Notes under the pieces: generated by a model
What the model was told of the DNA's origin: nothing
Seen by the model: only the letters and a program-made list of their open reading frames with translations
Database searches by the model: none
Program-made: the position numbers and the translations under genes
NCBI GenBank assembly: GCA_021783995.1
Contig: JAJXTH010000012.1
Span: 1 to 57,051 of the forward strand
Length of the DNA stretch: 57,051 bases
Origin: Pseudomonadota bacterium
GTDB lineage: Bacteria > Pseudomonadota > Gammaproteobacteria > Burkholderiales > Gallionellaceae
Direction of reading: 5' to 3'
In this document: in pieces, positions 447-53,461 of the stretch
Position numbering within the stretch: the stretch's first letter is position 1
Layout of the letters: the number at the start of each line of letters is the position of its first letter

Positions 447-1769
447 TCACTCTTCAAGTGCTTGAGAAAACTTCTGCACTGCATCGACCACCCTGCGCGC
501 CCCGTCGCGGATCTGGTTGATTGCATCGCCCGCGCCGTTGGCGAGGCTAACACCTTCTGCTACCTCCTCCTGGCTTTGCCTCATACTATCTATCACGGCC
601 CTGCTTTCGTTCTGGATCGTCTCGATCATTTTCGTAATTTCGGAAGTTGAACCGCTGGTGCGCTCGGCAAGCTTCCTCACCTCGTCGGCCACAACGGCAA
701 ATCCCCTGCCGCTCTCACCTGCGCGCGCGGCCTCTATCGCTGCATTCAGCGCCAGCAAATTGGTCTGGTCTGCGATTTCTCGAATCGTGTTGACGATGGA
801 AGTGATCTGCTCGGTCTCTTCGCCAAGGTTCTTCACCTGCAACGAGGAGCCTTGCACCTGTCTTGATAGCTCGTGCATCTTTTCGGTTGCCTGCAAAATG
901 ATCTGCTCGCCGCTTGATGCGACTTTCTCCGTTTCCAGGGATATTTCATAAGCCATGCGCGCGCTTTGCGATTCCGCCTGGTGGCGCAGCACCTTCTCCG
1001 TGATATCGGAGGCAAACTTGATGACCTTGTAAGGCACGCCATGCTCGTCCTTGACCGGGTTATAACTCGCCTCCAGCCAAACAGTACGCCCATCCCTTGT
1101 GAGACGCTCGTATTGCCCGGTGAAATAGTCGCCGCGGTTGAGCCTGATCCAGAACTCCCTGTATTCGGGACTCGATGCATATGCCTCGCGACAGAATATC
1201 CTGTGGTGCCTGCCCTTGATTTCATCGGCCCTGTAGCTCATCACCTCGAGAAAATTGGCATTTGCCTCGATCACGTTGCCCTGCATGTCGAACTCGATCA
1301 GCGCCATCGAACGGTCCAGCGCAGAAATCAGATCGCGAAGGGCTGCAGCCTCCTTCACCTGCCTGGTCACGTCGCTTGCGATCTTTAGGACTTTTGCGAC
1401 CTGTCCATTTGCATCGACGACGGGAAAATAGGTCGCCTCCAGCCACACTGCCTCGCCACTCTTTGTCTTTCTCTGAAACTTTCCGTTGAAGGACTGGCCC
1501 TGGCGCAGCCTGTTCCAGAATTCCTGGTATTCAGATGAGCGAGCATATTTTTCATCGCAAAGCGAACTGTGTCGCATTCCCTTGATCTCGTTACCGTTAT
1601 AACCCATCACCTGGCAGAAGACTTCATTTGCCTCGAGTATCGTCCCGTCCATCGAAAATTCGATCACCGCCATGCTGCGCTTAAGGGCTTCGAACACGTT
1701 CTTAAACGATGACAACTCTTGCTGCAGCGCATCGATCTGGGTTTGAAATTTCTTGCTTTGGAAAAACAT
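447..1769 (-). CDS. Soluble PAS-PAS methyl-accepting chemotaxis protein
   Basis: A 440-residue chemoreceptor that would signal to the CheA/CheW array. Two tandem PAS domains (about residues 20-130 and 145-255) share repeated motifs ([14 protein letters not shown] / [14 protein letters not shown]) and PAC-like ends (KIASDVTRQ / KFASDITEK). They are followed by a cytoplasmic MCP signalling domain with the conserved hairpin ([19 protein letters not shown]). No transmembrane segment or HAMP domain is visible, so it is probably cytosolic or array-bound, sensing redox or a small ligand through PAS. No CheR-binding pentapeptide is seen at the C-terminus. The frame opens further upstream, but the ATG at 1769 is preferred because GGAG precedes it at good spacing and the extra 26 residues look non-coding. 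It stands alone, without che genes. Confidence 0.88.
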
Positions 1770-1878
1770 CGTGAGTGCTCCGTGACAATTGGAAAGGCTG
1801 GTGAAGAACATTATCGGCAATAACCCAAAATTCTTAAAACCCGGCACGCCAGACCTGGCTCAGGGAATTCAAGGAGAC

Positions 1879-2070
1879 TTATACCTTGCGCAGACTTTCG
1901 AATTCGGAAGTTGGGGCAGGCCTTGAACACAGGAAGCCCTACACATAGTCGCAACCGAAGGAAAGGAGCAGGTCGCGCTGCACCTCGGTCTCGACACCCT
2001 CGGCGATCGTCCTGATTCCAAGCTTGTCCGCCATCACGATGATGGCACGAAGTAACAGCTGGCCTCCAAA
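1879..2070 (-). pseudogene. Fragment of an EAL-domain (c-di-GMP phosphodiesterase) gene with an internal stop
   Basis: The minus-strand frame reads LLLRAIIVMADKLGIRTIAE, then GVETEVQRDLLLSFGCDYV, a TAG at 1940-1942, and GFLCSRP, ending at a TAA at 1879-1881. This is the C-terminal third of an EAL domain; the family normally has Q before GF, so one C-to-T change (CAG to TAG) explains the stop. Upstream of about 2070 the similarity fades and no start is present. It is the dead remnant of a c-di-GMP phosphodiesterase or GGDEF-EAL protein. Confidence 0.75.
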
Positions 2071-2540
2071 TTGCCTGCCATAAAGCTGCCGTTCACAGGC
2101 AATCGATTTCAGATTGGAGCGACAGTCCGCTTAGGCCGAGCAGTGTGAATTGGCTTTCAGGAAGGCTTCGAAGTATAGCAGCCAATCAAGTGACAACGCA
2201 GCCGGGTGGACGTTAGACCGCAACAGGTTTCATGCTGCCAAATGCGGCCGGATATCAAAAGCGGTCATTGCTATGCAAAAGCACGATCAAGACTGATGCA
2301 ATTCAGTGGCCATCGGTGTGCAATTGCCGGGGTGACCTGACTGTTGGTACGAATCCTTTTCGCTTTGTTTTCGTGCTTTCGACAGACTTTATTTCTCGCC
2401 ATCAACTTTCGACGCATGTTCGGGAAATCCCGAATTTGTCATAAAAGGCTTTAGCTTAATTCTGCAATTCATTGCTTTTTAAGCATATTTATATTATTCA
2501 ATTTTCTTAGCTAAGCCATTGTCTTGTAAAGAAAAAATCC
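2071..2540. other. Gene-free stretch upstream of the dcw promoter, with one palindrome
   Basis: I see no convincing gene here; the one open frame, at 2232-2444, has no ribosome site and no recognisable protein. The second half becomes strongly AT-rich toward the dcw promoter. A perfect inverted repeat, TTCGGG-AAAT-CCCGAA, lies at 2419-2434. It has no U-tract on either side, so it is more likely a protein-binding site or chance than a terminator. Confidence 0.4.
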
Positions 2541-2550
2541 GATTTTTCGC

Positions 2551-2579
2551 TTGACCTGCGCTATTTTTTTCAATATAGT
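2551..2579 (+). promoter_or_regulatory. Sigma70 promoter of the dcw cluster (Pmra)
   Basis: TTGACC at 2551-2556 and TATAGT at 2574-2579 are separated by exactly 17 bp, a near-consensus sigma70 promoter. It lies 40 bp upstream of the mraZ start and is the only strong promoter I see before ftsQ, so it probably drives most of the division and cell-wall operon. Confidence 0.8.
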
Positions 2580-2612
2580 GGGGACTAGTGGTAAAAAGTG
2601 GGTAAAAGTGGG
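2578..2612 (+). promoter_or_regulatory. MraZ operator: four 10-bp-phased GTGG(G/T) repeats
   Basis: GTGGG at 2578-2582, GTGGT at 2588-2592, GTGGG at 2598-2602 and GTGGG at 2608-2612 recur at exact 10-bp steps. MraZ proteins are known to bind direct TGGG repeats spaced about one helical turn in their own promoters. Here the first repeat overlaps the end of the -10 box and the last merges into the mraZ ribosome site, so binding should block both polymerase and possibly translation of long transcripts. Confidence 0.82.
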
Positions 2613-2618
2613 GGTGAG

Positions 2619-3065
2619 ATGTTTCAGGGCGCGGCGCAACTCAATCTGGATGGCAAGGGCAGACTTGCGATACCTGCAAGGTATCGCGACATGCTGCAGG
2701 CCGCCTGCGCAGGCAATCTGGTTTTGACGGCCGATGCGGACGGCTGCCTTCTGATCTATGCGCAGCCCGAATGGTTGCCGATACGCGACAAACTGAACAA
2801 GCTTTCCTCATTCAATCCAAGAAGCCGTGCGCTGCAGCGCCTTCTCGTCGGTCATGCGGAAGATGTCGTGATGGACAGCGCCGGCCGAGTGCTGATTTCA
2901 CCCGTGTTGCGTAACTATGCTGCGCTTGACAAGAGCGTGATGCTGATCGGTCAGGGCAACAAATTCGAGCTTTGGGATGAGGCGAAGTGGCAGGCGCAGC
3001 AGCAGGCCGCACTTGCGCTCATGGGTGGCGAGCTTCCTGCGGAACTCGAAGGGTTTTCGTTGTGA
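2619..3065 (+). CDS. mraZ: Transcriptional regulator MraZ
   Basis: A 148-residue member of the MraZ/AbrB-like family, a DNA-binding repressor of the dcw operon. It has the expected two copies of the swapped-hairpin motif ([15 protein letters not shown] near residues 10-24 and [10 protein letters not shown] near 86-95). A GTG at 2598 in frame would add seven residues, but the ATG at 2619 gives the canonical [15 protein letters not shown] start and follows GGGGGTG. The stop overlaps the rsmH start (GTGA). The phased repeats just upstream are its likely autoregulatory sites. Confidence 0.95.
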
Positions 3066-3997
3066 GCGCGGCGCTCGCACATGAGACCGTTTTGTTGAAT
3101 GAGGCAATCGAGGCGCTCGAGATCAATCCGAATGGCATCTATGTCGACTGCACTTATGGGCGCGGCGGACACAGCGCGGGGATATTGCAGAGGCTTGGTG
3201 AGCATGGGAGGCTGATTGCGCTGGACAGGGATCTGGCTGCGGTATCGCACGGTCGTGCCGTTAACGATACGAGATTTTGCATCATCCACAGCGGGTTTTC
3301 GCGTCTGAACGAGGTTCTTGACGAGCAGGGTGTGGATCTCGTGGACGGTGTGCTGCTGGATCTTGGTGTTTCCTCGCCGCAACTGGACGATGCGGAGCGC
3401 GGCTTCAGTTTCAGATTTGATGCGCCACTGGATATGCGCATGGATGCGAGCCGCGGATTGACTGCGGCGGAATGGCTGGAGAGGGCGGAGGAGACGGAGC
3501 TTGCGGAGGTCATACGTGAATACGGCGAAGAACGGTTTGCTGGGCAGATTGCAAGAGCGATTGTTGCTGCGCGGAAGACGCATCCCGTCAAGACCACGCG
3601 GCAGCTCGTCGAGCTGGTTGGCAAGGCGGTACGTACCCGCGAGCCAGGTAAAAACCCGGCGACGCGCACATTTCAGGCTATACGGATTTATCTCAATCAG
3701 GAACTCGAGGAGCTAGGGCAAGTTCTGCCTCAGTGCGTTTCCAGGCTCAGGTGTGGGGGGCGGCTGGCGGTGATCAGTTTTCATTCTCTGGAGGATCGCA
3801 TCGTCAAGCACTTCATGCGCGACATGGTGCAGGCGGACAGGTTGCCGCGCAATGTGCCGATACGCGAAAGCGAGGTGCCCAGGGGGAAGTTGAGGCTGGT
3901 AGGCCGCGCAGTGCGCGCGGGCGAACAGGAGGTGCAGCGTAATCCCCGTGCGCGCAGCGCGGTGATGCGCGTGGCGGAGCGCATCGATGTGGCATAG
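3062..3997 (+). CDS. rsmH: 16S rRNA (cytosine-1402-N4)-methyltransferase RsmH (MraW)
   Basis: A 311-residue SAM-dependent methyltransferase that modifies C1402 of 16S rRNA in the ribosomal P site. The family signature [13 protein letters not shown] at the N-terminus, the SAM-binding [11 protein letters not shown] and the [14 protein letters not shown] motif are all present. The start is the GTG at 3062, which overlaps the mraZ stop; an in-frame ATG further upstream lies inside mraZ and is unlikely. Its end overlaps ftsL by 11 bp. Full family length and standard dcw position. Confidence 0.95.
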
Positions 3998-4295
3998 CAA
4001 TATCGCAAGAAGCATCCTGCTGGTTCTGGTGGTTGCGGCGGCGTTAAGCGTGGTCGATTCGCAGAATCAGGCGCGCAAGCTGTTCGTGTCGCTGCAGCAG
4101 GAAAAGGAAAAGGCGCACCAGATGGAAGTGGAGTGGGGGCAGTTGCAATTGGAGCAGAGCACGTTGGCGGCGCCTGCACGTGTGGAAAGAATCGCGACGC
4201 AGCAATTGCAGATGCAGCAACCGAAAAAAGAGCAGATCAGATTCATACGCATGGGACAGCTATCATCTAACAGCAGTGGGGCGGACAAGCCATGA
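3987..4295 (+). CDS. ftsL: Cell division protein FtsL
   Basis: A 102-residue bitopic membrane protein: a short cytoplasmic N-terminus, one transmembrane helix (about residues 6-24), then a periplasmic coiled coil ([20 protein letters not shown]) typical of FtsL, which pairs with FtsB and FtsQ to license septal peptidoglycan synthesis. Sequence conservation in this family is low; the call rests on size, topology and position between rsmH and ftsI. It overlaps both neighbours (11 bp and ATGA). Confidence 0.9.
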
Positions 4296-6046
4296 GCTAT
4301 GCGGCGAAAGCGAATGAAGTCGTTGCGGTAAAGCTGCCGGGGTGGCGGGCCACGGTGCTGTTCGCCGCGCTGCTGGCGGGTATGGGGGCGCTGATCGGGC
4401 GTGCGATCTATTTGCAGGGCATACACAATGATTTCCTGCAGGAACAGGGAAATCAGCGTTTCAGTCGTGTGATGGAAGTCAGTGCGCACCGCGGCATGAT
4501 CACGGATAGAAATGGTGCGCCGCTCGCGGTGAGCACGCCAGTAGAGTCGGTGTGGGCCAGCGCCTCCGAAATCAGGCTGAACGATCCTCAGGCCGCAAAG
4601 CTGAATGAAAGGGATCTGAAGAAGCTCGCTAGCGCATTGGGGATGTCCGAGGCTGAAATAAGGCGCCGTCTTTCCGATTCGACTCGAGACTTTGTTTATC
4701 TGAAAAGGCAGATCCCTCCCGAGGAATCGGGCAGGGTTGAAAGCCTAAATCTTCCGGGTATCTTCCTGCAACGCGAATACCGAAGATACTATCCGGAGGG
4801 CGAGGAGTTTGCGCAGGTACTGGGCTTTACGGGTCAGGATGACGTGGGCCAGGAAGGGTTGGAGCTCGAACTGCAGAATCAGCTCGCGGGCAAGGCGGGC
4901 AGCCAGCGCGTGATCAAGGACAGGCGAGGGCATATCGTCGAGGATGCAGGGAGTTTGAATCCGCCCAGGCCGGGAGCGGATATCGCGTTGAGTCTGGACA
5001 GCAGGATGCAGCATCTGGCTTATCGGGAGCTGGCATCTGCGGTGAAGGAACATCAGGCCAAGGCGGGCGCGATCGTGGTGCTCGATGCGAAGAGCGGAGA
5101 GGTGCTCGCACTTGCGGATTACCCGAGCTATAACCCTAACAACAGGTTGAACGTGAGTGCGGAAAAGATGCGCAATCGAGCGGAAACGGACGAGTTCGAG
5201 CCGGGATCGACGATGAAGCCATTCACCATCGGGACTGCGCTGAATCTGGGCAAGGTTACGCCCGGCACGGTGATCAACACCGAAAATGGTGTTTTTACGG
5301 TGGGCAACAGAAAGATACACGACACGCATCCGGAGCCCAGTCTGACTGTTTCTCAGGTGATACAGAAGTCGAGCAACGTGGGCGCATCCAAGATCGCGCT
5401 GTCGCTGAACCCGGACTCGCTCTGGCAGACCTTTCATGCCGCGGGCTTTGGAGCTCACACAGGCAGCAATTTTCCCGGTGAGGCAATAGGCAGGCTGCGC
5501 GACGCAAAAACCTGGAAGCCGATCGAGCAGGCGACCATGTCTTACGGGCACGGTCTTTCAGTCAACCTTGTGCAGCTGGCGCGAGCCTATACGATCTTCG
5601 CGGGTGGCGGAGAGCTGATGCCAGTCTCCATGCTGAAACTCAGTCAGCCGGCGATCGGTCATCAGGTTTTCTCGGGGAAGACGGTCAGTGAATTGCGCTC
5701 CATGCTGGAATCGGTTGTGCTACCCGGTGGCACGGCGCCGCTTGCTCAGGTGGCAGGCTATCGCGTCGCGGGCAAGACAGGAACGGCGCACAAGCTCGAT
5801 GGCGGGCATTACGTCAACCGTTATGTCGCCTCTTTTGTCGGGATGGCCCCTGTTTCCGCGCCGCGTCTGATCGTGGCAGTGATGATAGATGAGCCGAGCG
5901 GCAAGGAGTATTACGGGGGGCAGGTCGCGGCGCCGGTATTTAGCAAGGTGATGAGCGGTGCGTTGCACATGCTGAATGTACCGAACGATGCGCCGCTGGA
6001 CAACGTGTTGCCCCCGCCTTCCGAAATCATCAGGGAGGAAGTGTGA
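4292..6046 (+). CDS. ftsI: Peptidoglycan D,D-transpeptidase FtsI (PBP3)
   Basis: A 584-residue class B penicillin-binding protein that crosslinks septal peptidoglycan with FtsW. It has an N-terminal membrane anchor (about residues 19-41), the PBP dimerisation domain, and a transpeptidase domain with all three active-site motifs: S306-T-M-K309, S360-S-N362 and K495-T-G497. The start overlaps the ftsL stop (ATGA). Full length with no anomalies. Confidence 0.97.
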   Translation: MSYAAKANEVVAVKLPGWRATVLFAALLAGMGALIGRAIYLQGIHNDFLQEQGNQRFSRVMEVSAHRGMITDRNGAPLAVSTPVESVWASASEIRLNDPQAAKLNERDLKKLASALGMSEAEIRRRLSDSTRDFVYLKRQIPPEESGRVESLNLPGIFLQREYRRYYPEGEEFAQVLGFTGQDDVGQEGLELELQNQLAGKAGSQRVIKDRRGHIVEDAGSLNPPRPGADIALSLDSRMQHLAYRELASAVKEHQAKAGAIVVLDAKSGEVLALADYPSYNPNNRLNVSAEKMRNRAETDEFEPGSTMKPFTIGTALNLGKVTPGTVINTENGVFTVGNRKIHDTHPEPSLTVSQVIQKSSNVGASKIALSLNPDSLWQTFHAAGFGAHTGSNFPGEAIGRLRDAKTWKPIEQATMSYGHGLSVNLVQLARAYTIFAGGGELMPVSMLKLSQPAIGHQVFSGKTVSELRSMLESVVLPGGTAPLAQVAGYRVAGKTGTAHKLDGGHYVNRYVASFVGMAPVSAPRLIVAVMIDEPSGKEYYGGQVAAPVFSKVMSGALHMLNVPNDAPLDNVLPPPSEIIREEV

Positions 6047-7572
6047 TGCTGAGTCGGGCGGAGGATGCCGCGCAGATGAAGGAAATTCTGGCATCCGCCA
6101 TGCACTGTCTGCCCATGGGGGCGCGGCTGGTGACGGACAGTAGGCGGGTCAGCGCGGGCGATGCGTTTTTGGCTTATCCGGGCGAAAAGCTGGACGGGCG
6201 CGATCACATTCCGCAGGCGATTGCGCAGGGCGCACGTGCGGTGATCTTTGAGGAAAAAAATTTCGCATGGAATGCGGACTGGAAGGTGCCCAGCCTGGCT
6301 GTGACGGATTTGCGGCACAAGGCCGGATATATCGCGGATGCGGCGTATGGATATCCGTCAGAACACCTGTGGATGGTTGGCGTGACGGGCACCAATGGCA
6401 AGACATCCACCTGTCACTGGATCGCACAGGCATTGGGATTTTCAGGAAGAAAGTGCGCGCTTGTCGGGACGTTGGGCAACGGATTCGCCGGGGCGTTGGA
6501 ACCCAGCGCGAACACGACGCCTGATGCGGTACTTCTGCACGGACTGCTTGCGCAGTATCTGGTTGATGGTGCAGAAGCCGTTGCGATGGAGGTTTCATCG
6601 CATGCGCTGGTGCAGGGGCGCGTCAACGGCGTTCACTTTGACGTGGCGCTCCTGACCAATCTGAGCCGTGATCACCTGGATTACCACGGCGACATGGAAA
6701 GCTATGCTGCAGCAAAGCGCAGGCTGTTCGACTGGAAGTTGCTCAAGCATGCTGTGGTCAACCTGGATGACGCGTTTGGCGCGGAAACGGCGGTTCAGCT
6801 TCTGGAAAGCGAGGTCGAAGTCATAGGCTACGGGCTGACCGATGAGGCATTGCATCTGGCAGAAAAGCACGGCCTGCGCATGGTTTTCGGAAAGCTTCTG
6901 AATATGAGCCCGGAAGGACTGCGCATCGAAGTGTTTTCGAGCTGGGGCATGGGCGTGCTTGAAAGCGCGATGGTGGGGAAATTCAACGCGGCGAATCTGC
7001 TGGGCGTGCTGGCTGTGCTGCTGCTTGGCGATGTCGCCATGAATGAAGCGTTGGGCGCATTGCGGCGCATCCAGCCCGCTTCGGGTCGCATGCAGAAAAT
7101 AGGCAGCGCAGGTCAGCCTGCGGTCATCGTGGATTACGCGCACACACCCGATGCGCTGGAGAAGGTGCTTCTGGCCTTGAGGGAAATGAATGCGGGAACT
7201 GATGGAAAGCTGTACTGCGTTTTTGGTTGCGGCGGCGACCGCGACCGGGGCAAGCGTCCGATGATGGGTAGGATAGCCGAGAAATTTTCAGACTTTTGCA
7301 TCGTCACGAGTGACAATCCCAGGAGCGAAGATCCGGCATCTATCATAGGGGAAGTGACGAGCGAGATGGCGTTGGCAAACCATGAAATCATTGCTGACCG
7401 CGCATCGGCCATCGCATGCGCAATCGGCAAGGCGCGCGCATGCGACACCGTACTCATAGCGGGGAAGGGTCATGAGGACTATCAGGAGATAAGGGGAGAA
7501 AGACTGTCATTCAGCGATGTTGAGGTCGCGAAAGAGGCGCTCGTATCGTGGGTTGCAGGAGGCATCCAATGA
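6046..7572 (+). CDS. murE: UDP-MurNAc-tripeptide synthetase MurE (meso-diaminopimelate adding)
   Basis: A 508-residue ATP-dependent ligase that adds the third residue to UDP-MurNAc-L-Ala-D-Glu. The P-loop TGTNGKTS is near residues 114-121, and DNPRSEDP carries the DNPR motif known to mark meso-diaminopimelate specificity, so a Gram-negative type wall is expected. ATG 6046 lies 8 bp behind GGAGG and overlaps the ftsI stop; a GTG three bases earlier is an alternative. The 3' end overlaps murF (ATGA). Confidence 0.96.
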   Translation: MLSRAEDAAQMKEILASAMHCLPMGARLVTDSRRVSAGDAFLAYPGEKLDGRDHIPQAIAQGARAVIFEEKNFAWNADWKVPSLAVTDLRHKAGYIADAAYGYPSEHLWMVGVTGTNGKTSTCHWIAQALGFSGRKCALVGTLGNGFAGALEPSANTTPDAVLLHGLLAQYLVDGAEAVAMEVSSHALVQGRVNGVHFDVALLTNLSRDHLDYHGDMESYAAAKRRLFDWKLLKHAVVNLDDAFGAETAVQLLESEVEVIGYGLTDEALHLAEKHGLRMVFGKLLNMSPEGLRIEVFSSWGMGVLESAMVGKFNAANLLGVLAVLLLGDVAMNEALGALRRIQPASGRMQKIGSAGQPAVIVDYAHTPDALEKVLLALREMNAGTDGKLYCVFGCGGDRDRGKRPMMGRIAEKFSDFCIVTSDNPRSEDPASIIGEVTSEMALANHEIIADRASAIACAIGKARACDTVLIAGKGHEDYQEIRGERLSFSDVEVAKEALVSWVAGGIQ

Positions 7573-50486: not shown

Positions 50487-50710
50487 TCAATCGTTCCCGC
50501 GCTCCTTATCTGCAGGGTAACCTCGTGCCCGTAATTCGCGGATCTTGCGCGAACTGCCGTACGCATCTTTGAATTTAGAATGGATGCTCTGGAACAGCGC
50601 CAGCATCTGTGCATCCGTCAGGCGTTGCCGAGCAGGTTTGCCACCACGCTTCCATGATCGATAGCCACTCTCGCTGACATCCAGAATCGCACACATCTCG
50701 CCCAGCCCGA
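50487..50710 (-). pseudogene. Fragment of an IS3-family transposase (OrfB, N-terminal part)
   Basis: The minus frame from 50696 reads MCAILDVSESGYRSWKRG and DAYGSSRKIRELRARGY, the HTH_21 region of IS3-family OrfB. Directly after RARGYPADKER it leaves the family and stops; the rve catalytic domain is missing. The upstream side also has no OrfA. A dead IS3 remnant at the 3' side of tRNA-Phe. Confidence 0.75.
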
Positions 50711-50928
50711 AGTTTCGGCGTTACCACCTTGCCGCCAGCACTATTTAATTTCCCGGCATCCGCTGCCTTGACCCTATTTGCTATTTGGCCATGTCAAAAA
50801 ATTTTACACCTGATCTACCTACCTACCTACCTACCTACCTACCTGCCTTGCTGCCGATATATGTCGTTGATAGTAAAATAGTTTATTTCGGATGTAGTAT
50901 GATTGGCATGACTTATGCTTAAGATTAT
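50711..50928. other. Gene-free stretch with a repeated motif and a (CTAC)7 array
   Basis: No gene is visible. TGTCAAAAAATTTTACACC at 50792-50810 recurs with one change at 54333-54351. (CTAC)7 at 50815-50842 is a tetranucleotide array with no reading frame across it. The right part (from about 50850) is AT-rich and was originally continuous with 53446 onward, the upstream region of the PEP-CTERM gene, before the ISL3 insertion. Confidence 0.6.
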
Positions 50929-50968
50929 GGGTATCCGGATTATCGGGTGGATTGAGCCTTGATTTGGG

Positions 50969-52324
50969 TTAGAACTTGCCTGAGTCGAAAGCATGCTCCA
51001 GTGTGGATAGGTCGGTTCCAAGATTTGCAACGCGAGTTCTGATTTGTGTCTCATACTCATCGCTCATAGGAGTCGCAAGGCACATGTATCGAGCCGTTGC
51101 CACATCCTCGAATCGCTGTTTCCGGACGCGAACCTTCTCTTGGACTTTAACTCGTTTCTGGAGCATGTCGGTGTATAGCACCTTGGCCCGCAGCCGCTCA
51201 AAAGTGTAGCCCCGCCCATTGCGATAAACCTCCCTGACCTTAGCATTGAAGCTCTCGGTGAAGGCGTTTGTTACTCGCTGGTCATCGAAATAATTGAGAA
51301 TGTACGGCTTCCAGTTTCGGAAAGCGGTCTTCACGGCTCGGAATGGCTTGGAAAGCTCCTTCGGAATCGTGCTCTCCCAATGCAGATATTCGCCCCATGC
51401 TTCTTCAGGCGTCTCGACTTCATAGATGAAATACAGGCGCTCTTTGAGATCGTAGGCAGTGGCCAGCAAGGGGAAATTGTTAAGCCAGCCAGTCACAGTC
51501 AGATATTGCTCATCAGTCAGGTCGTCTCGACGTTTTTCAAATAGTTTGTGCGCTCGCTTGAGACCAAGGCCGGCACCGTTATTACTCTCCTTGGCAATCT
51601 TTCTCCGAACGATATCGAAAGCGGCGTTGGCTTTGCTCACGACATGAAACTTATCTACGACGATCTTGGTGTTTGGAAGAACCTCTTGTACGGCTCGGCG
51701 ATACCCAGACCACATATCAATGGCGCAATGGGTAATTCTCTCCTTGTCTGGCAGAGTGTTGAGAAAAGTAACGACAGAGGATGTGTAGCGATCAGGCAGC
51801 ATGTCTATCAGGGAGCGACCATGCAGATTGGTGAAGATGGCACGAAAACGCTTCAACTTGATTTCGTCTATACCCAGCCAGATGGGTGTTTCGCGCTTGT
51901 ACTGCTTTTCCAACTCGGCGACATATTCATCGAATACATTGCGAACTGTTTTCTCGTCAACCTTCACCTGCTTTGCAATTTCAGCATAGGTGTATTCGAG
52001 GGCTTGACGGCCAACCCATTTCGCCAGCCGCAAAGTCATCTCGCGTCCAGCATCCACTTCCGGCACTGCTGCGGTGAAAGTCTTATTGCAAGAGCGGCAC
52101 TTCAGGCGAGGTACATCCAGGTGAATTGCAACCGCCTTGCCATGAGATGGGATGTCGCGGATTACAAGGGTTCGCCAAGCGTGGCTGACGATATTGTTGG
52201 AACTGTCACAGTTCGGACAGCACCGGACGATTTCTATTGGTGATGCCTTGATGTGGTATTCATCGTTCGTTTCCTTGAAATCCAGCACGGTCAGGCCCGG
52301 CAGATTCAGGATATTTACTGGCAT
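50969..52324 (-). CDS. ISL3-family transposase
   Basis: A 451-residue transposase. The N-terminal zinc-binding module has CCPNCDSSNN and CRSCNKTF, followed by a helix-turn-helix (YTYAEIAKQVKVDEKTVRNVF) and the DDE_Tnp_ISL3 domain with WLGIDEIKLK, HCAIDMWSGYRRAV and VTNAFTESFNAKVRE supplying the acidic residues. Full length and uninterrupted, so probably active. It ends 40 bp inside the left terminal repeat. Confidence 0.95.
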   Translation of the reverse strand: MPVNILNLPGLTVLDFKETNDEYHIKASPIEIVRCCPNCDSSNNIVSHAWRTLVIRDIPSHGKAVAIHLDVPRLKCRSCNKTFTAAVPEVDAGREMTLRLAKWVGRQALEYTYAEIAKQVKVDEKTVRNVFDEYVAELEKQYKRETPIWLGIDEIKLKRFRAIFTNLHGRSLIDMLPDRYTSSVVTFLNTLPDKERITHCAIDMWSGYRRAVQEVLPNTKIVVDKFHVVSKANAAFDIVRRKIAKESNNGAGLGLKRAHKLFEKRRDDLTDEQYLTVTGWLNNFPLLATAYDLKERLYFIYEVETPEEAWGEYLHWESTIPKELSKPFRAVKTAFRNWKPYILNYFDDQRVTNAFTESFNAKVREVYRNGRGYTFERLRAKVLYTDMLQKRVKVQEKVRVRKQRFEDVATARYMCLATPMSDEYETQIRTRVANLGTDLSTLEHAFDSGKF

Positions 52325-52345
52325 CGAGCGTATTCCAGAAAGTAA

Positions 52346-52373
52346 CCCCCCGGCATCAATGATGCACGGGGGG
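52346..52373 (-). terminator. Hairpin between higA and the transposase gene
   Basis: CCCCCC and GGGGGG enclose an inner GCATC-AAT-GATGC stem: a very stable nested hairpin. On the minus strand it lies 31 bp after the higA stop and is followed by GGGGGGTTACTTTC, so it probably ends higBA transcription and insulates the transposase gene. Confidence 0.65.
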
Positions 52374-52403
52374 ATTGTTTATCGAAGCCTTCAAGAACAA
52401 GGT

Positions 52404-52688
52404 TCAAACACTAGCATGCAGTTTTACGCCTAATGCATGCGTAACTTTCAAAATAGTGTCAAAGCTTGGAACTCGCTCCCCAGAAAGGGACTTGTACAGG
52501 CTCTCGCGAGAAAGCCCTGATTTCTCGGCGACTTGAGCCATGCCTTGAGCGCGAGCAATATCTCCGAGAGCCTTGGCAATGAATGTTGCGTCACCATCAG
52601 ATTCTTCGATGCAAGCATCCAGATACATCGCCATTTCTTCCGGCGTGCGAAGATGTTCCGCCACGTCGTAACGTGTTGTTGTGATCAT
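52404..52688 (-). CDS. higA: HigA-like antitoxin (addiction module antidote, XRE family)
   Basis: A 94-residue antidote of the COG3636 type: an N-terminal toxin-binding part (TRYDVAEHLRTPEEMAMYLD) and a helix-turn-helix (MAQVAEKSGLSRESLYKSLS) ending in TILKVTHALGVKLHA. ATG 52688 overlaps the toxin stop and has GGAGAT ahead of it. Toxin-first order, as in other hig loci. Passenger of the ISL3 element. Confidence 0.9.
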   Translation of the reverse strand: MITTTRYDVAEHLRTPEEMAMYLDACIEESDGDATFIAKALGDIARAQGMAQVAEKSGLSRESLYKSLSGERVPSFDTILKVTHALGVKLHASV

Positions 52689-52990
52689 TTTTCGATCTCC
52701 TTTAACTTTGAGGCCAAATCCAGCGCCGTTTTAATATCTGCTGATTGAGATTGCTTATCGCCACCTGCAAGAAGGATAATTAACACTTCGCCGCGTTTGG
52801 CGTAATAGACTCGATAACCGGGCCCATAGTCGATGCGCATTTCAGAAACACCAGCACCAATTGGTTTTACATCACCTGCATTGCCAGCCCTGAGTCTTTC
52901 AACTCTGGCCAGGATTCGCATCCGCGCTCGCATGTCGCGAAGCCCGTCAATCCAGTTGGCATATTTCTCTGTTTTGCGAATTTCGACCAT
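52685..52990 (-). CDS. higB: HigB/RelE-superfamily toxin (addiction module killer protein)
   Basis: A 101-residue toxin of the RelE/ParE superfamily (COG3657 type): MVEIRKTEKYANWIDGLRDM, ARILARVERLRAGNAGDVK and SEMRIDYGPGYRVYYAKRG are characteristic. Members cleave mRNA on ribosomes or poison gyrase; which applies here is unknown. The frame opens upstream to 53032, but a consensus promoter sits inside that stretch and the family begins at MVEIRKT, so ATG 52990 is chosen; the transcript may be nearly leaderless. Confidence 0.88.
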   Translation of the reverse strand: MVEIRKTEKYANWIDGLRDMRARMRILARVERLRAGNAGDVKPIGAGVSEMRIDYGPGYRVYYAKRGEVLIILLAGGDKQSQSADIKTALDLASKLKEIEK

Positions 52991-52995
52991 GGACA

Positions 52996-53023
52996 ATTGT
53001 AGCCTACTGGCTACGCCTGTCAA
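52996..53023 (-). promoter_or_regulatory. higBA promoter with a palindromic operator in its spacer
   Basis: On the minus strand TTGACA (53023-53018), 16 bp, TACAAT (53001-52996): near-consensus sigma70. The perfect palindrome GTAGCC-TACT-GGCTAC at 52999-53014 fills the spacer and overlaps the -10 box. HigA is expected to bind it and repress. The predicted transcription start is within a few bases of the toxin ATG. Confidence 0.8.
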
Positions 53024-53032
53024 GTTCTTCAT

Positions 53033-53357
53033 ATAGTTCCTATATTGATATGCGGAATACCCATGCAGGTATTTATTTCCCGCAAGGGTTGATGAATGAC
53101 GCGATTCATTGCGCCTGTTTGAAATGCCATTTACGCATGGCGACGATCTTCCTCACGAAGAGGAGAAATCTTGAGCAATAAAAATGCTCGCGATTCCGCT
53201 CAACAAGCGCAATCGTGAACGTTCTATGGGCGTATTGATGGATTTGGTCTTGCAGATGCCCGGAGGCTGGTTGGAATGCTCTGTGTCTTTTACGCCCGAA
53301 GCGGCAGGCACTGGTGATTATAGCTACCCAGAAAGTTCGGTCAAGCTGGCGTCATAC
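53033..53357. other. Right-hand non-coding part of the ISL3 element
   Basis: Between higB and the internal repeat no gene is convincing. A frame at 53184-53384 (+) codes for 66 residues but has no good ribosome site and I do not recognise it; it also runs through the internal inverted repeat. The segment may be flanking DNA captured from an earlier host site. Confidence 0.4.
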
Positions 53358-53376
53358 ATCCACCCGATAATCCGGA
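53358..53376. repeat. Internal inverted copy of the ISL3 terminal repeat
   Basis: ATCCACCCGATAATCCGGA here is the exact reverse complement of 50934-50952 inside the left end. The outermost five bases differ (GTCTG instead of TACCC), so this copy is probably a former, now disabled right end. Confidence 0.8.
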
Positions 53377-53461
53377 GTCTGTAATTGCTGTCAGTTCAGA
53401 TGGAATGCGCCTCATCCACCGTTTAATCCGGATACCCAAGATTATTCTTGAGTTTTTGGTA

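Follow-up and report, generated by a model that had tools for sequence, protein, structure and literature searches.

The stretch of DNA analysed here (hereafter the window) comprises positions 1 to 57,051 of contig JAJXTH010000012.1 from a bacterium of the family Gallionellaceae (assembly GCA_021783995.1). Near its right end, positions 50929-53437 form a complete, 2509-bp element of the ISL3 family that carries a toxin-antitoxin (TA) gene pair inside its ends (Table 1). The element is flanked on both sides by the exact 8-bp duplication AAGATTAT; its left end, GGGTATCCGGATTA, begins at 50929, the inverse of this sequence finishes at 53437, and there is 88% complementarity between the 25-bp terminal arms (50928-50952 and 53414-53438). 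The genes lie on the minus strand in the order toxin, antitoxin, transposase, and those of the toxin and antitoxin overlap. The transposase scores 289 bits against the NCBIfam ISL3 equivalog model NF033550 (cut-off 180) and exceeds the cut-offs of all three Pfam domains PF14690, PF13542 and PF01610; among five open reading frames (ORFs) of the element that were tested, only those of the transposase and the TA pair reach beyond a family cut-off. The assignment to ISL3 is thus carried by the transposase family, the terminal inverted repeats and the 8-bp target duplications, AAGATTAT in the window and GAAATTTC at a second site described below. An initial annotation had proposed an ISL3 element with inverted ends and a duplicated flanking octamer, enclosing a transposase and a higBA pair. 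The ends, the octamers, the family and the position of both genes inside the ends are all borne out, the name higBA is not, and the 19-bp exact inverted copy of the left end that it had reported inside the right end is likewise present: 50934-50952 recurs in exact inverted form at 53358-53376, 61 bp inward of the right end.

Table 1. Features of the ISL3 element and its insertion site (positions in the window).
Feature	Position	Strand	Remarks
Target-site duplication, left copy AAGATTAT	50921-50928	none	
Transposase-side terminal inverted repeat	50929-50952	+	tip GGGTA plus core TCCGGATTATCGGGTGGAT; same boundary in second copy
ISL3-family transposase gene	50969-52324	-	451 aa; Zn ribbon, HTH and DDE_Tnp_ISL3
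GC-rich stable hairpin	52346-52373	-	separates antitoxin and transposase genes
Antitoxin gene, HI1420 type	52404-52688	-	94 aa
Toxin gene, RelE/ParE family, HI1419 type	52685-53032	-	
Possible TA promoter, TTGACA-16-TACAAT	52996-53023	-	pattern match
Palindrome GTAGCC-N4-GGCTAC, possible antitoxin operator	52999-53014		inside possible TA promoter
Second promoter-like site, TTGACC-16-TATAAT, facing the TA genes	53317-53344	-	pattern match only
Core-only subterminal repeat	53358-53376	-	56 bp inside outer repeat; probable accessory transposase-binding site
Cargo-side terminal inverted repeat	53414-53437	-	true right end
Target-site duplication, right copy AAGATTAT	53438-53445	none	

Both proteins of the pair lie well above the cut-offs of their family models, the toxin with 132.6 bits against TIGR02683 (HI1419; cut-off 62.85, residues 17-109 matched) and the antitoxin with 122.8 bits against TIGR02684 (HI1420; cut-off 53.7); they additionally match Pfam Gp49 (PF05973) and PF21716, respectively. 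Adjacent and with the toxin first, they constitute a type II TA pair of the HI1419/HI1420 type, and "higBA" is only loosely right since the pair belongs to these families and not to the HigB_toxin family. PF09907 (HigB_toxin) is absent from the matches of the window toxin, where up to E 0.1 only Gp49 appears, and is present in the relative L024. The toxin probably starts at Met15 (52990), because the family model matches from residue 17 and many homologues in relatives align only from residues 13-17 onwards. Among solved structures searched by sequence the window antitoxin has no match, and matches of the toxin to two designed ankyrin proteins were dismissed. The hairpin between the antitoxin and transposase genes has a predicted energy of -22.7 kcal/mol (z -3.85) and is missing from the terminator list of the pattern scan.

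The draft genome of the host (54 contigs) contains one full copy of the element. A second copy, identical at 99.88% over 2510 bp, lies in a genome of the same genus (L003, which we judge to be the same contig as L022, JAJZTF010000010.1). This copy has the same two ends and is flanked on both sides by a different 8-bp duplication, GAAATTTC, within flanks that differ from those in the window. Joining these flanks with a single duplication gives an open stretch of 231 codons, and a peptide within it is what we take to be an EAL-domain motif. The right flank of the window insertion was found in only two of 100 other genomes searched (G046, as locus L111, and G126), and the better match, L111, has no left flank within the stretch examined, so the empty-site argument rests on the second copy. 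Since a 99.88% identical copy elsewhere has the same ends and its own duplication, the arrangement is not a product of chance, and the same ends with different duplications at two sites mean that the TA pair is part of the mobile unit. The element is therefore a genuine, recently mobile, TA-carrying ISL3 element.

In order to place the element among its relatives, drawn from plasmids, genome contigs, viral contigs and whole genomes, we built a maximum-likelihood tree of 39 transposases. Duplicates and near-duplicates (L026, L036, L037, L039, L044, L047, L048, L051, L064, L068, L070-L072, L074, L078, L080) and broken or cut genes (L007, L027-L030, L073) were omitted from it, as was L045 for its short upstream flank. 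The viral contigs contributed one relative (L049), and the 45 phage records with matches all remained below 60% identity. The window transposase falls into a clade of 11 rows (clade A; support 100/100). For counting TA pairs, members with broken genes were included and near-identical copies merged (L023/L024; L025/L026/L028; L032-L034; L007/L039/L051/L085; L038/L083; L050/L084; and the window with L001/L003/L022/L036/L037), and L030, of which a contig edge leaves just 32 residues, was excluded; the result is 11 distinct elements, coincidentally the same number. A TA pair lies directly beside the transposase gene in nine of these 11, in six different pairings: HI1419/HI1420 in the window, HigBA in L023/L024, L025/L026/L028, L007/L085 and L032-L034 (in L032 only the toxin is annotated), Gp49/HTH_37 in L031, ParE with a ribbon-helix-helix antitoxin in L038, MqsRA in L029 and PrlF-YhaV in L027. 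The initial annotation had proposed to compare the presence of higBA among ISL3 relatives; in this clade TA genes are recurrent and of several types. As the window and L031 toxins share Gp49, these pairings represent five Pfam toxin families, and most of the toxins belong to the wide RelE/ParE superfamily; those of the window, L024, L031 and L038 have no mutual BLASTP match at E 0.001. The L024 antitoxin has no Pfam or NCBIfam match and was called HigA by a weak match to a solved HigA (E 0.001). L049 is one of the two elements without a TA pair; it has no recognisable cargo-side end and was scored as a miss, though it is possibly truncated.

The TA genes are co-directional with the transposase gene in eight of the nine TA-bearing elements, and the gaps between them and the transposase start measure about 3, 7, 16, 16, 18, 22, 55 and 79 bp. 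Six of the eight are shorter than 25 bp and therefore too short for a usual intergenic promoter. The pairs also appear to move between elements: HigB of L024 is 98-99% identical to HigB of L032-L034, and its HigA 97.6-98.4% identical to that of L033/L034 (99% and 97.6%, respectively, for L024 versus L033), beside transposases that (L024 versus L033) are only 57% identical overall, with 73% over residues 1-145 and 48% over residues 146-450. The shared stretch of this mosaic covers HigBA and the start of the transposase gene (L024 3154-4431, L033 4168-5431). Near-identical HigBA genes beside transposases of 57% identity are evidence for exchange of the cassette between elements. Two of these relatives show further particularities. 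In L029 the transposase gene of the MqsRA element is split by an insertion (about 4850-7150) with two ORFs that by eye resemble a serine recombinase and a TnpB-like protein, and L034 (590-6405) is a 5.8-kb ISL3 element with an exact 8-bp duplication that carries, in addition to HigBA, eleven small hypothetical genes encoded on the other strand.

The sister group of clade A consists of 19 tree rows, and with a support of 90/98 its limits are not firm. Its cargo was scored upstream of the transposase gene, sometimes not in the adjacent gene, and in 15 of the 19 rows it comprises MNT/HEPN, Fic, AbiEii or restriction/methylase genes. MNT/HEPN genes occur in five rows (L035, L055, L056, L057, L066), a Fic-domain gene in another five (L053, L054, L061, L063, L079; L053 and L061 at or just under the Pfam cut-off, L079 by annotation), AbiEii in one (L067) and restriction or methylase genes in four (L041 and L059, together with L058/L078 and L077, which were assigned from record annotation, the piece of L058 having no Pfam family match of its own). 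Two rows carry a Cas2-like small protein that scores below the cut-off (L040, L060), and to two nothing was assigned (L062, L081); the TA pair present near L081 is outside the element, about 2 kb past its end. As in clade A, one sister element was found at two sites, the plasmid loci L079 and L080, with different duplications; the L080 copy (1027-5446, on an Acidovorax plasmid) is a Fic-cargo ISL3 element with a short cas1 gene on one side and a Tn3 transposase/cas9 on the other. No TA pair was recognised in the remaining nine tree rows; their cargo is a type I restriction gene in L046, a reverse transcriptase gene in L065, and otherwise metal-related (by eye) or unassigned genes. Four distant plasmid ISL3 loci (24-37% identity), hand-picked and not a formal control, have no annotated TA gene within 2.5 kb upstream (0/4), in plasmid gene tables that are incomplete; in L123, which is among these four, the transposase gene is followed downstream by a "putative holin-like toxin".

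The second copy of the end motif near the right end had led the initial annotation to propose two alternative right ends, the element having once ended at 53376, lost its tip and adopted a more distant repeat. We scanned 47 loci and found 22 insertions with an exact 8-bp duplication; L029 and L031, which have recognisable ends and no exact duplication, were added, and after removal of the duplicates L022 and L080 (L085 was kept) 22 distinct elements remained, some of them closely related, such as L033 and L034. All but one of the 22 possess a core repeat 54-56 bp inward of the cargo-side end; these 21 vary in cargo, and their transposases share as little as 38% identity with that of the window. 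The sole negative, L085, has a stop codon in its transposase gene. In each of the 21 the inner repeat is among the best-scoring 3.5% of offset windows; in 10 of them it is not the clear single best offset. Averaged over the elements, offset 56 scores 11.6 of 19, compared with 5.2 for the overall mean and 0.6 for the standard deviation of the column means. On the transposase side the top averaged score is 7.6, at offset 34. Compared with the 5-base tip, the inner sites match at a mean of 1.2 of 5 positions, about chance, the true ends compared with each other at 4.4 of 5 (21 elements). Among eight clade A elements, mean pairwise identity is 72% in the outer core, 75% in the inner core and 33% in the spacer. 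Since the elements are related, these data show conservation of the repeat and not its independent origin. Of 11 elements tested from the sister group, 10 (L035, L079, L081, L086, L087, L090, L093, L094, L096, L101) possess an additional core-like repeat at a distance of 100-102 bp from the cargo-side end.

That the inner repeat is a relic of a former end has one feature of the window in its favour, namely that it matches the opposite end at 19 of 19 positions, whereas the outer repeat matches that end at only 16 of 19. A decayed end would nevertheless have to recur at the same spacing in all but one of 22 distinct elements that differ in cargo, without the tip and next to a spacer that is not conserved in the eight elements compared. 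The initial annotation had also suggested looking for copies that end near 53383; in the 22 insertions with exact duplications the best end found was the outer one. We consider a lost and replaced end very improbable and reject it on the strength of the 22 distinct elements. The inner repeat instead looks like a conserved core-only site, as would be expected of an accessory transposase-binding site, and the appearance of "double ends" follows from this conserved subterminal repeat.

As to the origin of the TA pair, close copies with 86-90% DNA identity occur in L004, L005 and L006, with no detectable transposase or end motif within 1.5 kb. The sequence upstream of the toxin gene is common to the window, L004 and L005, and the palindrome that overlaps the promoter-like site is found in exact form at L004, L005, L008 and L017; of L004-L006, only L005 has the hairpin downstream of the antitoxin gene. 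As the toxin-upstream sequence and the exact palindrome are shared with copies free of an insertion sequence (IS), the pair probably came with its own control region. HI1419-like toxins are encoded in 42 of 101 genomes searched, the host genome included, which makes capture from a chromosome the simpler direction and a probable one. The host genome encodes two more homologues of this toxin (G000:C38 12312-12563 and G000:C21 626-862).

Taken as a whole, the locus is in our view best explained, with a probability of roughly 0.7, as an ISL3 element in which a TA pair occupies a slot between the cargo-side end and the transposase gene and acts by addiction and promoter coupling. The transposase would bind both core repeats on the cargo side and cut only at the one with a tip. 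The TA promoter, repressed by the antitoxin, would transcribe the toxin and antitoxin genes and, by reading through the hairpin, the transposase gene. If the element were lost, for example by excision as a circle, the antitoxin would decay and the cell would be poisoned, so that loss would be selected against, and the falling antitoxin level would simultaneously raise transposase expression. Judging from the sequences, addiction of the cell to the element together with a TA promoter that also feeds the transposase gene is the most likely function; the former follows from the TA family membership, which makes stabilisation of the element plausible, and the latter is likeliest in the relatives with gaps below 25 bp (six of eight). 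Several observations weigh against this explanation. In the window the hairpin could terminate most TA transcripts before the transposase gene, and a promoter may lie inside the antitoxin gene; the promoter-like matches in the element, five against 2.8 expected in shuffled sequences (standard deviation 1.9), are hardly in excess. The TA pair of L027 is divergent from the transposase gene. L084/L050 carries a KfrA-like gene in place of a TA pair, and because L084 (G844) is complete, with ends and duplication, an element can move without the pair. The two-repeat asymmetry of the ends is not absolute, since L027, L033 and L034 have weak matches (12-13 of 19) on the transposase side as well, at 55-56 bp, and with HI1419-like toxins in so many genomes, material for capture is common.

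The same facts bear on the other ways in which the pair could have come to lie here. For a resident pair, with the IS inserted around or beside it, speak the close copies without a detectable IS in L004-L006. The pair is nonetheless inside both ends and carried in a 99.88% identical unit at a second site, which refutes this course of events for the present copy; we regard it as next to impossible except as the origin of the captured pair. Unlikely, on balance, is a pure passenger, neutral or of benefit to the host, whose place beside the transposase gene is simply the single tolerated insertion slot. Other members in which the genes upstream of the transposase are restriction, metal-related or unassigned ones, as well as the complete L084, speak for such a passenger; the TA pairs in nine of 11 clade elements, in six pairings, are unlike a random sample of genes (a judgement, made with no formal base rate), and 11 of the 19 sister-group rows carry cargo that is of TA type by family. 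A somewhat better case, still one we doubt, can be made for cargo that helps the host by abortive infection or against competitors and does not addict the cell to the element. Related elements carry restriction endonuclease, methylase, Fic, AbiEii, MNT/HEPN and reverse transcriptase genes, which are also known from phage defence, yet defence alone does not explain the tight coupling to the transposase gene. The addiction and promoter coupling that we favour could also be extended to a whole ISL3 lineage, in which addiction would be a standard, exchangeable part of transposition. The slot would be refilled repeatedly with different TA modules (in the sister group also with MNT/HEPN, Fic, AbiEii or restriction genes), and recombination between elements would account for part of this refilling; each module would bring an autoregulated promoter, the antitoxin level would gate both killing upon loss and transposase expression, and the asymmetric end with its spaced cores would order assembly of the transposition complex. 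We put this forward tentatively, with the odds somewhat against it.

The nearest parallel is provided by Tn3-family transposons, which carry TA genes of several families, repeatedly acquired, beside the transposition genes, some of them running in the direction of tnpA, and for which addiction and promoter coupling have been proposed (Lima-Mendez et al., 2020; PMC7157771); the word ISL3 is absent from the main text of that paper. The likeness lies in the several TA families that adjoin transposition genes, in some cases in the same direction. Unlike the Tn3 elements, the window element has an ISL3 transposase, with no resolvase identified among the ORFs tested. TA copies outside an IS have the same toxin-upstream region as the window element, a region with a promoter-like site and a palindrome, which bears on a question left open in that paper. 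With the ISL3 elements ISPpu12 and ISPst9 it shares a transposase of this family with cargo genes beside it. The cargo of ISPpu12a, as described in PMC4133298, consists of a regulator, a metal antiporter and a signal peptidase and names no TA pair, in contrast to the window element. ISPst9 is reported to form excised circles (as cited in PMC3812183), and by analogy this could be a route by which the present element is lost. L108, which judging from its cargo and with no direct comparison is probably ISPpu12-like, has the subterminal repeat at +56. From the IS-free HI1419/HI1420 pairs of L004-L006, which belong to the same two protein families at the DNA identity given above, the window pair differs in lying inside a transposing element.

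Among the matches listed in literature searches, titles and abstract openings contained no report of TA-carrying ISL3 elements (ISfinder, TnCentral and subscription journals were outside the scope), and a search pairing "ISL3 family" with "subterminal" found nothing. The more interesting result is not the single element; it is the broader pattern of one ISL3 clade whose TA slot is refilled by different modules. A second transposase family with a slot in which various kinds of TA module are exchanged would show convergence with Tn3. Short elements in which only a few bases separate the TA genes from the transposase gene make control of transposition by a TA promoter directly testable, and the repeat conserved at 54-56 bp provides a definable two-site end that can be used in annotation.

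The insertion in the window has two further neighbours on its left side. An IS3-family transposase fragment adjoins it at 50487-50696 on the minus strand (NF033516, 31.9 bits, below the cut-off of 160), and a run of CTAC tetranucleotide repeats lies just left of the insertion, at 50815-50845.

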